Source: a virus. From it: DNA of 48,453 bases. The first letter of the stretch is position 1; each line of letters opens with the position of its first letter. Location: positions 1 to 48,453 of the IMG/VR virus record IMGVR_UViG_3300003691_000010; one strand, given 5' to 3'. The translations under genes and the position numbers were made by a program. Positions 20,481 to 44,279 of the stretch are shown in pieces. The notes below the pieces were generated by a model. It saw only the letters and a program-made list of their open reading frames with translations. It had not been told where the DNA came from and did not search any database.

Positions 20481-20551
20481 GCGCAGATAGCTTAGTATTT
20501 GCTGAAAGCATCGTCTACATTGAGTCCTCGGTTCAAGTCCGAGTCTGCGCG
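20481..20551 (+). ncRNA. tRNA-like leader element, degenerate tRNA
   Basis: 71 nt. Perfect 7-bp acceptor (GCGCAGA with TCTGCGC), perfect T-arm (CTCGG, TTCAAGT loop, CCGAG) and a D-stem (GCTT with AAGC). I can find no 5-bp anticodon stem with a 7-base loop; the region between D-arm and T-arm is about six bases too short. No CCA is encoded, and GCCTTTTT follows the acceptor. It could be a decayed tRNA, a tRNA mimic, or an attenuator. It is not an ordinary working tRNA. Confidence 0.6.
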
Positions 20552-20577
20552 CCTTTTTAATTCTGGAGATATAAATA

Positions 20578-24285: not shown

Positions 24286-24504
24286 TTACTCCATTGAGCC
24301 TGTAACAGTGACGCCAGTTGTATCCATAGCTGATTGTACAGTAGTTTTAGTTGTCATGCTTGATAATGCTGTTATTCCGGTTGTGTCCATAGTGCCAACG
24401 ACAACAAAAGTTTGGCCTGTAAAAATAAACGGTGTTTTACCAGAGAATGAACCATAAAGGCTTCTTGCTATTCCAATTAATCCCTGTCTTGTTTTAATTG
24501 CCAT
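24286..24504 (-). CDS. Small virion-like protein with repeated MDTTGIT motif, 72 aa
   Basis: The C-terminal half carries two near-copies of a MDTTGIT/MDTTGVT motif separated by Ser/Thr-rich sequence. The ATG overlaps the preceding stop by one base. Probably structural, by context. Confidence 0.5.
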   Translation of the reverse strand: MAIKTRQGLIGIARSLYGSFSGKTPFIFTGQTFVVVGTMDTTGITALSSMTTKTTVQSAMDTTGVTVTGSME

Positions 24505-27323
24505 TATAAGATTACAAACGTATCGCCGTTGCTCGGGGCTTCGGTTGTTGCTGTATAAGTTAGTTTTTTGGCTGTGCCGTCATAATCTGTTATATCCGTT
24601 CCTTGACCGTTTAACACGCCTGAAGTCCACTTAATAATTAACCCGTTATAGTGGTCGTCTGTTGCTTCAGTTAAGTCTGTTGTCATTTCTGTTGTCGATA
24701 AGGTGCCGGTAATTGCTGCACCTGGCGTTATTGCTAAAGCTGATTTTTGTAAGTTAGTCGCTGCAGTTGTATTGCCGTCTATCTGGTCGGTGTTGGCAGT
24801 AACTCTATTTGTTATTGTTGAAACTGTTGGTATGACTGCCCCAATATGCGTTGTATTTGCCAATATTACGGGGCTGGCCGGTATCATTACATAACCTGAT
24901 GTTGAGTCAGGAGTTACGCCCCACGCCTTATCTAATGTTGCAATTTTAGTTGTACCATCGTAATCAATCACTATTCCCGCCTGATCGTCACCCGTACCAG
25001 ACCGAATAAAAACAATCTGACCCACATAAACATCATCTATTGAGCTTGCTAGCGTATTGAGGGTAATTGTTGTTGATGTGCCTGCCTGAGCGTTTCCTTC
25101 ATTAACATGCTCCCTACCTGCATTTGTCGTAATAGTGAATACTGAAGTGGCGTCTGGTGTTACTTTCCAGTTCCTATCAACAGTGGCGACTTTAGTCGCC
25201 CCCATATACTGAAGAATTAATCTCGATTGACCGGCACCAGTCCCTGATACAATCGTCACATCTGAAGGGTCATAAGTACCATCAACTGATGATGCTCCGG
25301 TTGACAGTGTTATTGTATTTGTCGAGCCGGCTTGAGCGGTATCTGTGAAGATTACAACCGAATCAATAACATCTCTAACGCGCTTTCCAGCAGAATTAAT
25401 TATATTATGGGTTGCGCCTGTTAGCACTCTATCCCATATTGCCTTGGCTATTTCTACCATTCCAATTGACGTTGATGCAATTGCGTCTAAACCTGTCGAT
25501 GATAGAGAATAACCTGTTTTATCACTGTTGGTTCCTACTGTCACACTATCAGCAGTAAAATCAAAGTATGCAGACGCCATTAGTGTTCTAGCATTAAATT
25601 GTGCGACTGATGGTGGGACTACTGTGTTAGCAGAATCTGTACCTCTCATGGTCGCAGTGTCAACGCCATCTGTTCCGCGCATAGTTGCGGTATCAACTCC
25701 GTCAGTACCCCTCATTGCTGTGGTTGGTATTGCATCAACTTTAGTTGTGTTGTCATCTGCTGTAATTGTTACGCCGCCAGTATTGGTTACTTTCCAGTCT
25801 CCTCGCTGATTGACCGTCCCACTTGAAGATGCGGCATAAATTATTTGGCCTTTTCCGCTTATACTAAATAAATCAGTACCAAGCGCATTAAGATTGCTGA
25901 TTTCTATGCCTTGCTCATACCCTGGCATTGTTAAATTAACATTCGCTACAGTTGCACCTGTATCAATTTCAGGGGTTAATGCGCCTGCAATAGACGAGTG
26001 ACACATTGCTAGCTCATAATCTCCGGCCGCTGAGAATGTTATTATACTATTTAACCCGCTATTTTTGGCAACGAAGGGAACTAAGGTGCACAAACCCATC
26101 TCGCAACCATCAAACTCAGGCCTTACTGCTCCCGTTCCGATACCGCTAACTACCGCACCTTGGAAATGCGCTCCCGATATCGATTGATTTCCTAGTTGCA
26201 GAGTCCAGTTATCTCCAAACAGTGAAAAGTTATCACTAGCTCCAGTTAATGCAATTGTTGATCCGTTTACAATGTGAAAGTCTGTTATACCAAGACTTGC
26301 CGAAAGAGTTAGTGCTGCAGCCCATGTTGATACAGGGTTATCTGCAACCCCATCAACGAAAGGCTCGGTGTTGGTATTTGATGCACCGGTATTAACCCAT
26401 ATCGACCCTCCAGCATAACCAACTGATCTTGAAGTGGATGATTTTGATACAAACACCTGATCGGTATCAAAGCTTGAGCTTGTTAATCCTGTGTTGTTAA
26501 TGCGAACCTGAACCTGACCTGTAATATCAGAAACAACCATATTAGAAAACATAGTGAATGTATGCACCACATCACTTGATGAATTTGTCCCGACTAGAGT
26601 ACCTAGTTGAATCCAGACTGGAGATGCGTCTGTCCCTGTATTGGCTGAAATTATAAAGCTGTCATTATTGCTATTATATACTCCAGTAAAAGTAACACTT
26701 ACTGGTGCTGCATCACCACCTATATCAAATTTATAAATCGCGTCAAGCGTGCCTGCGGCATCAGTTAATTCATGACGAGTACCATCTAGCGGAACTGTAG
26801 CATCCTCATCATTAACCTCCGACCCGGTTGTTAATGTAAAGCCGTTTGGTGCAGCGATAGTTGATACATTAATAGCTGCACCGACATTTGCGATCTGACT
26901 AAGACTATCGTTGAGCGCTGAGTTACCGAACACTGAGTCGTTTACAATTGCGTAACTATCCCCTGTTTGCGCTGTTCCACCTAAATTATTGAACGTGCCG
27001 GTTAATAAAGCATCAAATGCAGTTGCGGTTAATACTGTATAAACTGATTTTACAGCTAGAGCGCCAGCAACATGAACATAAATCTCAAGCATTCCTGCGG
27101 TATCTGAATCTGTTGCGTCTAGTGTACACTGATAAACGCCATTAGATATTACAGTTGCACCACCTGAGTTTTTATTAATTAAGGTTGTTCCGCCGTGCTT
27201 TCTGATTTTAATATCAGTATTAGCAATAGTTAAACCACCTTCCTCGGTATCTCCATCGGTTGAATCTAGGAACTGACCTAAACTGATCTCTTGGCTTGCC
27301 GTTGATTGTCTTAAATATTGCAT
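24504..27323 (-). CDS. Large fibre/appendage structural protein, 939 aa
   Basis: Residues 1-105 look like a BppU-type N-terminal domain found in siphophage appendages. The middle is a long beta-rich region with beta-helix-like coils (about 340-520). Three 11-residue repeats, MRGTDGVDTAT, lie near 535-565. The C-terminal 280 residues hold three divergent copies of a ~70-residue beta domain with YDGTTKIATL-type cores. Virion surface fibre or adhesin is likely. It is unusual that it lies between lysis genes and terminase, far from the tail cluster. Confidence 0.65.
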   Translation of the reverse strand: MQYLRQSTASQEISLGQFLDSTDGDTEEGGLTIANTDIKIRKHGGTTLINKNSGGATVISNGVYQCTLDATDSDTAGMLEIYVHVAGALAVKSVYTVLTATAFDALLTGTFNNLGGTAQTGDSYAIVNDSVFGNSALNDSLSQIANVGAAINVSTIAAPNGFTLTTGSEVNDEDATVPLDGTRHELTDAAGTLDAIYKFDIGGDAAPVSVTFTGVYNSNNDSFIISANTGTDASPVWIQLGTLVGTNSSSDVVHTFTMFSNMVVSDITGQVQVRINNTGLTSSSFDTDQVFVSKSSTSRSVGYAGGSIWVNTGASNTNTEPFVDGVADNPVSTWAAALTLSASLGITDFHIVNGSTIALTGASDNFSLFGDNWTLQLGNQSISGAHFQGAVVSGIGTGAVRPEFDGCEMGLCTLVPFVAKNSGLNSIITFSAAGDYELAMCHSSIAGALTPEIDTGATVANVNLTMPGYEQGIEISNLNALGTDLFSISGKGQIIYAASSSGTVNQRGDWKVTNTGGVTITADDNTTKVDAIPTTAMRGTDGVDTATMRGTDGVDTATMRGTDSANTVVPPSVAQFNARTLMASAYFDFTADSVTVGTNSDKTGYSLSSTGLDAIASTSIGMVEIAKAIWDRVLTGATHNIINSAGKRVRDVIDSVVIFTDTAQAGSTNTITLSTGASSVDGTYDPSDVTIVSGTGAGQSRLILQYMGATKVATVDRNWKVTPDATSVFTITTNAGREHVNEGNAQAGTSTTITLNTLASSIDDVYVGQIVFIRSGTGDDQAGIVIDYDGTTKIATLDKAWGVTPDSTSGYVMIPASPVILANTTHIGAVIPTVSTITNRVTANTDQIDGNTTAATNLQKSALAITPGAAITGTLSTTEMTTDLTEATDDHYNGLIIKWTSGVLNGQGTDITDYDGTAKKLTYTATTEAPSNGDTFVIL

Positions 27324-34272: not shown

Positions 34273-34929
34273 TTAAAAAGCTCCCTTTGATACTTCACCC
34301 ATGGTTAATGGGTCGCTATTGATTAATCGTTTAGTTGTTGCAAGCATTTTGTTACCTAGCAGCCAATGGATTGTAGATATGTGCTCACCCTTTCTATGTG
34401 CAGCCGTGGCAAACGTTCTGCGCCCTGATTGTGAGCCTGGGTTCTCTATGCCACCTTCACGTAATAAGTCTAATATGTGGCGTTTTAGAGAGTCGGCTCG
34501 CTCCCTTCCTTTAATAGTCGTTATTGCAAAAGGCTCACCCTTTAAAGTCCTAAATAAGAATTCATTTTTATATACATTATCCATCGATTTAATGTACTTC
34601 TTTAACAGCGTGGCAATATCCTGTTTAATATGCATTATTCTGTACTCACCATTAGATGCTTTATCGCCTCGAATAGTAAAACTCTTCTTAATCATATCGC
34701 CGTTTAACACGTCTGAAATAGTTATTTTATTAAGCTCTAATATCTCGCATGGCGAACCCAAGAAGAAAGCCAACAAACATAAATCTCTTTCAGGCCATTT
34801 ACTTTGCTTCTTGGTTAATTTAAATAACCATTCCTGATCTGATTTCTCGATTAACTCTGGCAAAGCCATGTATGTAAAACCTTTATTTATTAGACTATTT
34901 AATACATGAGTTAAGCTTAAACCCATCAT
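34273..34929 (-). CDS. Tyrosine-recombinase-like protein, degenerate active site
   Basis: About 218 aa, catalytic-domain size only. The layout is that of a tyrosine recombinase: FFLGSPCEILELNKITISDV, IRGDKASNGEYRIMHI, SGRRTFATAAHRKGEHISTI, HWLLGNKMLATTKRLINSD. The first catalytic Arg is absent (GSPCEI instead of GLRxSEI), the HxxR His is Ser, LGH is LGN, and the Tyr position reads Leu. Only the Lys and second Arg remain. It probably binds DNA without cutting. ATG 34929 or 34926; a start at 34869 is also possible. Confidence 0.65.
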   Translation of the reverse strand: MMGLSLTHVLNSLINKGFTYMALPELIEKSDQEWLFKLTKKQSKWPERDLCLLAFFLGSPCEILELNKITISDVLNGDMIKKSFTIRGDKASNGEYRIMHIKQDIATLLKKYIKSMDNVYKNEFLFRTLKGEPFAITTIKGRERADSLKRHILDLLREGGIENPGSQSGRRTFATAAHRKGEHISTIHWLLGNKMLATTKRLINSDPLTMGEVSKGAF

Positions 34930-34975
34930 AACCAATAGTCAAGCACTGATGGTTATTGAGTTATGGGGCATACCT

Positions 34976-42608: not shown

Positions 42609-42830
42609 GTGAGCATAATTCAATCGCTAATCAACAAAATAATGAATCATAGCGGCGTTCAGTGTGACGATTGCAAGAAACACTTTGCCGAGCTCACAAC
42701 AATATTCACAAGTAAAATCGGCTTCAAGGATGTATGCGATAAATGCAAATTAGGCCGCGAGAATCATTATAGCAGGGGATTAAATTCGTTCCCAAGTAAA
42801 ATAGAGTTTGATAAAAGGAGAGTAATTTAG
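42609..42830 (+). CDS. Zn-finger protein, 73 aa
   Basis: GTG 42609 behind AAAGGAGGTGATA, a near-perfect anti-16S match. CDDCKKHF and CDKCKLGREN form a four-Cys zinc site. Last gene before the long gene-free block. Confidence 0.65.
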   Translation: MSIIQSLINKIMNHSGVQCDDCKKHFAELTTIFTSKIGFKDVCDKCKLGRENHYSRGLNSFPSKIEFDKRRVI

Positions 42831-42848
42831 TAAAATAGATTTGCTGAT

Positions 42849-42975
42849 CGTACAGCGCCAAGTAAAACCTGATGACAAAAAGAGTCTTTAAAGCAAATTT
42901 CAGAGCCTTAGTTTTAATCGTTATCAGGTAACTAAACGCTATACGAACTGAGGTTTGCTTTAAGGACTTTTTTTT
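42849..42975 (+). terminator. Terminator with 21-bp stem and competing/pseudoknot pairing
   Basis: 42883-42903 pairs without mismatch (three G-U) with 42948-42968, and T8 follows at 42968-42975: a strong intrinsic terminator with a 44-base loop. In addition ACCTGATGAC (42867-42876) can pair with GTTATCAGGT in the loop (42920-42929), and CGTACAGCG (42849-42857) with CGCTATACG (42937-42945, one mismatch). These two nest with each other but cross the main stem, so they form either a pseudoknot or an antiterminator. Confidence 0.6.
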
Positions 42976-43041
42976 ATGGCTATAGTATGGGATTAGATAT
43001 CAACGTTAGGCTTCTCATGCTTAAGCCACCCTTCAAGCAAT

Positions 43042-43159
43042 AAGTGTTTATATGTGGTGGAGTTGTAAAGTTAGAGGTTGTTACTTATCCCAACCCTCGT
43101 AGCTAAGGGCAACACTCATTAATTGAAATTGGGTATAGCTCCCCTTCATATAAACACTT
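43042..43159 (+). ncRNA. Large stem-loop with 13-bp perfect closing stem
   Basis: AAGTGTTTATATG (43042-43054) pairs perfectly with CATATAAACACTT (43147-43159). Inside, GGAG/CTCC extends the stem imperfectly and GAGGTTG pairs with CAACCCTC (one bulge) as an inner hairpin. Part of the structured block. Confidence 0.55.
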
Positions 43160-43167
43160 CCTCAGAT

Positions 43168-43325
43168 AGATGATATAAATATATGCGCATGTGGCGGAAT
43201 TGGTAGACGCGCTTAACAGGTTAAAGTAAACGCCTGGTTAGGTGGGGTAAGTTATCTTTCTAGAATTTGCTTGCATAACCCGTGAAGGTTCGAATCCTTC
43301 CAAGCGCACCATATTTATATCATCT
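43168..43325 (+). repeat. 15-bp perfect inverted repeat enclosing the tRNA-like domain
   Basis: AGATGATATAAATAT (43168-43182) and ATATTTATATCATCT (43311-43325) are exact reverse complements. They lie directly outside the tRNA-like acceptor, so the acceptor helix would continue into a 15-bp AU-rich helix. The final A of ACCA belongs to the second arm. Confidence 0.8.
43185..43311 (+). tRNA. Oversized tRNA-Leu-like gene or domain
   Basis: 127 nt. The acceptor GCGCATG pairs with CAAGCGC (one A-A mismatch), followed by ACCA. The D-arm GGCGGAATTGGTAGACGCGC is class II leucine-like, and the T-arm GAAGG, TTCGAAT, CCTTC is canonical. About 40 bases more than a normal tRNA-Leu lie between them. The anticodon arm is unclear: ACAGG/CCTGG with a 12-base loop, or an arm around CAG or TAA. 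A GTTAT/ATAAC helix fits a long variable arm. Real tRNA, pseudogene, or RNA domain all remain possible. Confidence 0.55.
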
Positions 43326-43331
43326 AGATAG

Positions 43332-43465
43332 TTAGTATACCAAGTGAATTCTGCTAGTTAGGAACCCTAAAATCACTAATTACGTTTGTCGTCACGCAGT
43401 ATGTGATTGAAACCGCGTAGTTAACAGGATGTAGGCAGGTTACGGGGATTCACTTCTTATACTAA
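43332..43465 (+). ncRNA. Large stem-loop with ~18-bp closing stem
   Basis: 43332-43351 pairs with 43446-43465 in 18 of 20 positions, with one 2x2 internal loop. Inside, AATCAC pairs with GTGATT. It starts seven bases after the tRNA-like helix, so the two modules may stack in one RNA. Confidence 0.55.
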
Positions 43466-43706
43466 TTAAAGTCTTATCAACAATAGTTATTCTTATTCAG
43501 CAAAATTAACATTGAATTGTAATGCCAATTAAAAAACATCGTCAGGATAGCGAGACAGTAAATACGGCTATATAAATCCTAGCAATGCTGACTGCTTGTA
43601 TCTAGGTCATTTAATGGGAACCAGACTATGGTAATTAAAAGGGTAACGAGTACCAAGGTTAGTGAGTTAATGATACTTACCAGCCTATGGGAAAGGAGAT
43701 AAATAT

Positions 43707-44279
43707 ATGTCAAAGAAGCGTAAATGGAAGAAAAAGTCATTTAAACGGCTACTTTCAGAGAAAGAAGCCTTATTAGCAAAATTACATAAACTTGCTAAAG
43801 CGAATAGTACTGATGATAAGGATCGAAAAGTTGCTTACTCGTTAATAAATTGGCATTTGAGAATGAATGGTTTATCGCCTAGTCAATGGGATTACGCAGA
43901 CGCGATCATTAAAAGGTATGAAAACGTAAAGCTCACCCATCAAGTAGAGCAAAAACAATATCTATATGGAATATCTGATGGTGAGATGATTAAGCTAGGT
44001 ATGAGCAACAACATTAAAAAACGGTTAGAGGCGCTTCAAACGTCGAACCCTAAGACTTTAAGGATAGTTTGGGAGCTTTATACTGGTAGGTGCACCAAGT
44101 TGGTCAGAAGGCTTGAGAGGAAGCTTCACAGGCGATGTAAAAAATACAGAGTTAGAGGTGAATGGTTTTCAATAAACTGCTTTGACCTAGTTAAGACCTT
44201 TAGGGGTCAAGATCAGAAAAAAGAAGAACCGTTAAGCGATAATGATATTGAATTAATAAAAGAATCTCAGAAACATTAA
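43707..44279 (+). CDS. GIY-YIG / T5orf172-type nuclease, possible homing endonuclease
   Basis: 190 aa. A basic N-terminal region (KKRKWKKKSFKRL) is followed by the nuclease domain: YLYGISDGEMIKLGMS (85-100) with YLY as the GIY and KLG as the YIG variant, then IKKRLEALQTSNP (R106) and LVRRLERKLH (E137), ending EWFSI (152-156). This matches the T5orf172/MUG113 branch. AAAGGAG precedes the ATG. It lies directly downstream of the structured gene-free block. Confidence 0.8.
   Translation: MSKKRKWKKKSFKRLLSEKEALLAKLHKLAKANSTDDKDRKVAYSLINWHLRMNGLSPSQWDYADAIIKRYENVKLTHQVEQKQYLYGISDGEMIKLGMSNNIKKRLEALQTSNPKTLRIVWELYTGRCTKLVRRLERKLHRRCKKYRVRGEWFSINCFDLVKTFRGQDQKKEEPLSDNDIELIKESQKH

Follow-up and report, generated by a model that had tools for sequence, protein, structure and literature searches.

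A candidate large modular non-coding RNA locus with a predicted pseudoknotted leader and a tRNA-Leu-like head in a marine-type bacterial virus

Introduction

The locus studied here raises the question of what a bacterial virus encodes in 876 bases (positions 42831–43706) that hold no gene. The window, by which we mean the whole stretch of DNA that was analysed (48,453 nucleotides), is IMGVR_UViG_3300003691_000010, a virus record of 48.5 kb in IMG/VR. Its genes are of the siphovirus type and include those for tape measure, portal, major head protein and terminase, and also Rap/NinG. The source of the block is a marine-type bacterial virus, and the nearest named relatives of the portal protein are those of Pseudoalteromonas phages (40%). 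Elsewhere in the window, a 939-aa protein encoded at 24504–27323 has no PHROGs or Pfam match. A first-pass annotation had proposed that the block produces one large structured RNA, possibly GOLLD or ROOL or else a member of a new class.

Coding capacity and folding of the block

The absence of genes was borne out, as no ORF of at least 60 aa overlaps 42831–43706 and the largest ORF inside or overlapping it, on the minus strand, is 53 aa long. The block is by far the largest non-coding gap of the window, the runner-up being 358 bases. The four long inverted-repeat modules described in the first-pass annotation are real, but the pair counts given for them (21, 13, 15 and about 18) become 27 (42877–42903/42948–42974), 13 (43042–43054/43147–43159), 16 (43167–43182/43311–43326) and 8 + 10 (43332–43351/43446–43465). 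One further arm has to be added at 42977–43028, and the first module contains extra crossing helices, which move its start to near 42843, behind a promoter-like site. The whole window holds ten inverted repeats of at least 12 pairs within 400 nt; three of them, including the two longest, lie in the block.

The folding z of the block was −6.9, and 20 equal control stretches elsewhere gave values from −1.8 to +2.4. When the parts were analyzed separately, the z was −5.4 for the 5′ element (M1), −3.9 for arm A, −4.7 for the tRNA-like arm B and −3.3 for arm D. The value for the 3′ segment (−0.6) was not unusual, though this segment is conserved. Sequence comparison shows the following layout: a conserved leader, M1, which is pseudoknotted and ends in a U-run behind its terminator-like stem; an array of long-stem arms with interchangeable heads; and a conserved 3′ segment.

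The 5′ element M1

A sigma70-like promoter, TTGATA-17-TAAAAT (42808–42836, plus strand), precedes the RNA, with 10/12 matches, a score that by itself is no better than that of shuffles. The −10 box (TATAAT) is found at the same place in the homologous phage G039 (see below) and in Vibrio phages, and as TACAAT in G001, G003 and G008, which are relatives of the window in their structural genes; it precedes M1 in every named member read.

M1 (42843–42976, plus strand) is predicted to consist of the helices h1 (42843–42846/42853–42856), h4 (42848–42852/42942–42946), h2 (42868–42876/42920–42928) and h3, the 27-pair stem, which is followed by the U-run. Their order is h1 with the 5′ strand of h4 in its loop, the 5′ strands of h2 and h3, the 3′ strands of h2, h4 and h3, and the U-run, so that h3 crosses both h2 and h4. 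The element was assessed by a shuffle test, by covariation and with a model. The crossing helices of the window copy beat 99.7% of shuffles, and the shuffle fraction was ≤0.01 in half of the copies tested (6/12), the remaining copies being weaker. In an alignment of nine Vibrio phage copies, 84.5% of the cells pair and 11 pairs change on both sides; at most 1/500 shuffles reached four of the five measures (17/500 for the fifth), and slid versions of the alignment were paired to at most 59%.

Model R1, built from the nine Vibrio phage copies without the window, matched the window end to end at 42833–42979 when 401 bases were searched with the filters turned off (23.4 bits, E 2.4e-5). In a fast scan of 0.9 Mb, the window copy was not good enough for the E 5 cut-off and the G039 copy was found at E 1.7e-4. 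The window copy combines an R1 match with the crossing helices h2 and h4, which is how the M1 family is defined here.

Arms, tRNA-Leu-like fold and 3′ segment

Behind M1, all features lie on the plus strand. Arm 1 is a hairpin directly behind the U-run (42977–43028; 42977–42981/43024–43028 and 42984–42992/43013–43021). Arm A (43042–43159) has the 13-pair stem and carries the head M2 (GGAGTTGT...AGCTCC), and arm B (43167–43326) is a perfect 16-pair stem around a tRNA-like fold; both stems are AT-rich and partly alike in the window and G039. Arm D (43332–43465), the fourth module of the first-pass annotation, has the stems 43332–43339/43458–43465 and 43342–43351/43446–43455. The conserved 3′ segment (43541–43697) stands directly before a GIY-YIG gene; it is approximately 88–90% identical to that of G039 and has a weak match in Vibrio phage 1.110.O.

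The tRNA-like fold that had been noticed earlier is present within arm B (43185–43311), but it is not a normal tRNA, as neither ARAGORN nor the Rfam tRNA model made a call. The elements of a functional-tRNA body were found: an acceptor with 6/7 pairs (43185–43191/43301–43307), a D arm of exact tRNA-Leu type (43194–43210), a perfect T arm (43284–43300), A73 (43308) and an encoded CCA (43309–43311). The 5-pair, 7-nt anticodon arm with U33 that was sought in 43185–43311 is absent; an extended hairpin takes its place (43212–43242), followed by an enlarged variable region of approximately 40 nt (43244–43283). This head is accordingly predicted to be a tRNA-Leu-like body in which the anticodon and the variable region have been replaced. 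With the Rfam tRNA model, the window copy scored 17.9 bits, which is below the gathering score of 29, whereas the G039 copy passed with 39.9 bits. A pattern for expanded tRNA-Leu elements (see below) matched once in the window and never in 100 shuffles; a crude pseudoknot test on the insert of the window's fold was not significant. An 18-base pattern derived from the fold was discarded, since its sole match was coding and due to chance.

A second tRNA-like fold was seen at 20481–20555 (plus strand), with the acceptor GCGCAGA/TCTGCGC and a perfect T arm, followed by GCC and a T-run. Its anticodon region is shortened, and neither ARAGORN nor the Rfam tRNA model called it.

A homologous block in phage G039

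Filtering for G26 together with an encoded CCA left 14 contigs, one of which was a true homolog (L272/G039). In G039, a second IMG/VR phage, the block is complete and is likewise followed by the GIY-YIG gene. The acceptor, D and T arms of its tRNA-like fold are identical to those of the window, and a different hairpin replaces the anticodon arm. Tail, head and other proteins of the two phages are about 47–67% identical. Conservation between them is highest in the 3′ segment, where single-base indels indicate that it is not coding; a conserved reading frame was sought and none was found.

The heads of the arms have been exchanged between the two phages: M2 sits on stem A and the tRNA-like fold on stem B in the window, and the arrangement is reversed in G039. 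The G039 block also has one extra arm. In M1 helices h1, h2 and h4, arm 1 and the inner part of arm D, the two strands of either phage pair completely, but strands combined from the two sequences hardly do, as expected for compensatory change. Arm D of G039 shows a compensatory change from T-A to C-G and a re-paired inner stem. Thus, the idea of one large structured phage RNA linked to tRNAs gained support from the homologous loci and from compensatory changes, which were sought in related phages and are present both in the nine Vibrio M1 copies and in the G039 block.

The surroundings of the block differ between the window and G039, and so does its strand when the structural genes are taken as the reference. 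A search by the early-operon proteins found no block. The structural-gene relatives are without the block of the window but have M1-like loci elsewhere in the genome.

M1 loci in other phages and the genes beside them

In Vibrio phage 1.110.O, a relative of the GIY-YIG gene is preceded by a non-coding stretch that contains a similar hairpin and a tRNA-Met. The 5′ element of this phage recurs in 1.240.O, 1.242.O, vB_VaM_H2, 1.275.O, Seahorse, BT-1011, 242E40-1 and 1.054.O. Vibrio phage NF shares the promoter region by BLAST, and R1 finds its M1 at 60 bits. M1 is thereby present in at least ten named Vibrio phages.

What stands directly behind the U-run varies. Real tRNAs are found there in Seahorse (Trp, Arg and Gly) and vB_VaM_H2 (Met and Arg), a tRNA-like fold labelled 'tRNA-Und' by the depositors in 242E40-1, another tRNA-like fold in NF, and other hairpins, often with closing stems such as TTGTATCTG/CAGATACAA, in 1.275.O, 1.054.O and 1.242.O. 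A tRNA and a mimic can therefore occupy the same place. R1 also found further M1 copies in the structural-gene relatives G003 and G008. In G003, G008 and G001 (L061, L062, L064, L066 and L057), several gaps of approximately 470–720 nt per phage start with an M1-like terminator, and these gaps resemble one another, so that a single genome holds several such loci. In several of them the promoter overlaps a palindrome, for example CACCGC...GCGGTG, as though they shared a repressor.

The downstream neighbour of the block (43707–44279, plus strand) encodes a GIY-YIG (T5orf172/MUG113) protein. It is 62% identical between the window and G039 and 36% identical to the protein of Vibrio phage 1.110.O, whose gene is also 3′ of the RNA. 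A GIY-YIG gene is absent behind the RNA in most other M1 family members, and the genes downstream of M1 loci vary (GIY-YIG, phosphoesterase, methylase and unknown proteins).

Comparison with known RNA families

An Rfam scan of the window gave nothing at the gathering score, and within the block weak matches only (up to E 5). There was no Rfam or ARAGORN match in the window to OLE, HEARO, group I or II introns or tmRNA. Membership in GOLLD or ROOL, as suggested in the first-pass annotation, found no backing, as neither the window nor its relatives gave an Rfam match to these families. The same search recovered GOLLD in a viral contig (L200, 6857–7268) with 306 bits, showing that the search itself works; that contig also has a tmRNA, several tRNAs and two tRNA-Leu-like elements. 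A literature search, covering open-access papers, found no description of the RNA family or of an anticodon-less tRNA-Leu class. The alternative of a new class, also raised at first pass, fits the block RNA best: the family is absent from Rfam 15 and from the searchable open-access papers. That the family is real we regard as highly probable.

The block resembles GOLLD (RF02032) in being a large, ornate phage RNA that is linked to or carries tRNAs and has a conserved 3′ and a variable 5′ part, and differs from it in its exchangeable arms and in the pseudoknotted terminator at its start. The likeness to ROOL is that of a large phage RNA often near tRNAs, although the Rfam model of ROOL does not match. 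The vibriophage ICP1, which has no tRNAs, produces an approximately 800-nt non-coding RNA as its most abundant transcript from an unannotated, ORF-less 1-kb gap (PMC7567579). The large ORF-less gap in a Vibrio phage is the feature in common, and ICP1 was rejected as a relative because R1 found no M1 there and there was no significant similarity. Phage tRNA loci are similar in that real tRNAs occur at the same place in M1 relatives, whereas the window and G039 have a tRNA-Leu-like fold without a normal anticodon arm. Like transcription attenuators and T-box leaders, M1 is a structured leader with an intrinsic-terminator-like stem at its end; unlike them, it has crossing helices and no Rfam match, and its switching is putative. 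A type III toxin-antitoxin system was also rejected, since there is no tandem repeat of one unit and the downstream gene is GIY-YIG and not ToxN-like.

A wider class of expanded tRNA-Leu elements

With one strict pattern, consisting of a tRNA-Leu D arm and T arm with 20–50 nt too much between them, matches were obtained in at least 120 viral contigs. Among the matches listed, 82 of the 97 non-redundant elements have all seven acceptor pairs (44 different stems), the 51 distinct acceptors have a mean of 6.59 pairs compared with 3.48 with shuffled partners, and a normal anticodon arm (5-pair, 7-nt, U33) occurs in one of the 97 non-redundant elements. The elements lie mostly between genes of the same direction, with no recurrent partner among the neighbour genes. 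A crude pseudoknot score was enriched across the class, 31% being in the top 5% of shuffles. The class shares its body plan with the window; common descent beyond the tRNA-Leu ancestry was shown for G039 only.

The pattern also gave 69 matches in bacterial genomes; about a quarter of these fail the acceptor test, and some further ones turned out to be ordinary tRNAs in which an assembly gap or the joining of genes explains the match. The best plasmid match is an ordinary tRNA-Leu.

Proposed working and alternative explanations

Tentatively, and with somewhat less than even confidence in the explanation as a whole, we read the block as the gene for a large modular non-coding RNA that is attenuated and displays mimic or decoy heads. 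RNA polymerase would start at the promoter-like site, and part of the transcripts would stop at M1, giving a short RNA of approximately 130 nt. The remaining transcripts would continue past it whenever the crossing helices impede formation of the complete terminator stem. Since the connectors are so short that full-length formation of both the 21–27-pair h3 and the crossing helices is hardly feasible, M1 may be a leaky or regulated terminator; we consider the chances for and against attenuation evenly balanced. The long stems would then be substrates for RNase III, and the tRNA-like head would be processed by RNase P and CCA-handling enzymes. Once released, the heads might be mimics that bind host factors for tRNA or structured RNA, serving as a decoy or sponge and not in codon reading, a function that we regard as possible but doubtful. 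LeuRS depends little on the anticodon, which makes a tRNA-Leu body a plausible choice for a mimic. The apparently normal tRNAs at the first arm position of relatives suggest a phage tRNA locus as the probable origin of the block. Points that count against this explanation are the basis of two sequences in the comparison with G039, the ordinary folding stability of the conserved 3′ segment, the non-significant pseudoknot test on the insert of the window's fold, and the AT-rich, partly similar stems of arms A and B.

One large RNA, forming a homo-oligomeric cage of the GOLLD/ROOL type with tRNAs as cargo but without common ancestry, would agree with the similar size (480–1010 nt), the phage origin, the embedded or adjacent tRNAs (GOLLD linkers can contain tRNAs, PMC12286853) and the conservation of the 3′ part next to a variable 5′ part. 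We nevertheless find it unlikely, because in addition to the lack of Rfam matches the arms look independent and exchangeable and not like one compact fold, and both length and arm number vary. Another possibility is that the block serves the GIY-YIG nuclease as a regulatory leader or an RNA partner, by autoregulation, as a homing cassette or as a type III-like RNA antitoxin. The window, G039 and Vibrio phage 1.110.O each have a GIY-YIG gene directly downstream of the RNA, the most conserved 157 nt border on the GIY-YIG start codon, and block and gene occur together in different surroundings in the window and G039. As most M1 loci precede other genes and tandem antitoxin repeats are lacking, this partnership is distinctly unlikely as the explanation of the block.

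Two further possibilities take the tRNA-like fold as their starting point. A decaying phage tRNA array, in which the fold and the arms are functionless relics, could account for the intact tRNAs at the first arm position of relatives and for the loss of the normal anticodon arm, yet it is very unlikely: G039 has the same acceptor, D and T arms, the helices are kept through compensatory change, and the wider class keeps its acceptor stems paired while the anticodon region is replaced. A tRNA-Leu fragment used as a phage attachment site for integration has been proposed for cyanophages; S-CBP1 and S-CBP2 have such a fragment adjoining the integrase, and the cyanophage fragments beside integrases are probably attachment sites. 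The window does have an integrase-like gene (34273–34935), but it lies more than 8 kb from the block, so that the arrangement of a tRNA 3′ end fragment beside an integrase is not found, and M1, the arms, the altered anticodon region and the covariation would be left unexplained. This origin is extremely unlikely.

Returning to the modular RNA with displayed heads, the reading can be extended to the wider class. The tRNA-Leu body would be a scaffold on which phages swap the anticodon and variable region for unrelated structured domains, so that anticodon-less tRNA mimics would form a widespread class with at least 120 viral loci, and the window RNA would be a multi-head version with exchangeable arms behind an attenuator, acting as a decoy array against tRNA-directed host defence. 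This extension is speculative and rather unlikely. The modular arms of the family, in which a tRNA or a tRNA mimic can take the same position, offer a handle on why large phage RNAs and tRNAs co-occur. The isolates in which this can be tested are Seahorse, vB_VaM_H2, 1.110.O, 1.240.O, 1.242.O, 1.275.O, 1.054.O, 242E40-1, BT-1011 and NF.

Further tRNA-Leu-like elements

The class of tRNA-Leu elements without a normal anticodon arm escapes ARAGORN in default mode and mostly Rfam, and has therefore been overlooked in phage tRNA counts and annotation. Several groups of tRNA-Leu-like elements were seen in addition. One family (L103, L218, L225, L233 and L252) occurs in Bacteroidales genomes and a viral contig, its elements having a common loop close to TTGAGAGTCCGGATGCTAAA and a covarying closing stem. 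In pairs of elements (L088 and L137/L162; L129 and L197), the inserts have a pseudoknot in common whose strands differ by compensatory changes, one example being AGCTTT/AAAGCT versus TGTAAT/ATTACA. In Planctomycetota and Saprospiraceae (L213, L214 and L258), an apparent tRNA-Leu has a hairpin insert of approximately 26 nt inside the anticodon loop. Viral tRNA-Leu-like genes in L122, L274 and L278–L280 have an anticodon arm readable as an ochre suppressor (UUA), together with G73 and an encoded CCA.
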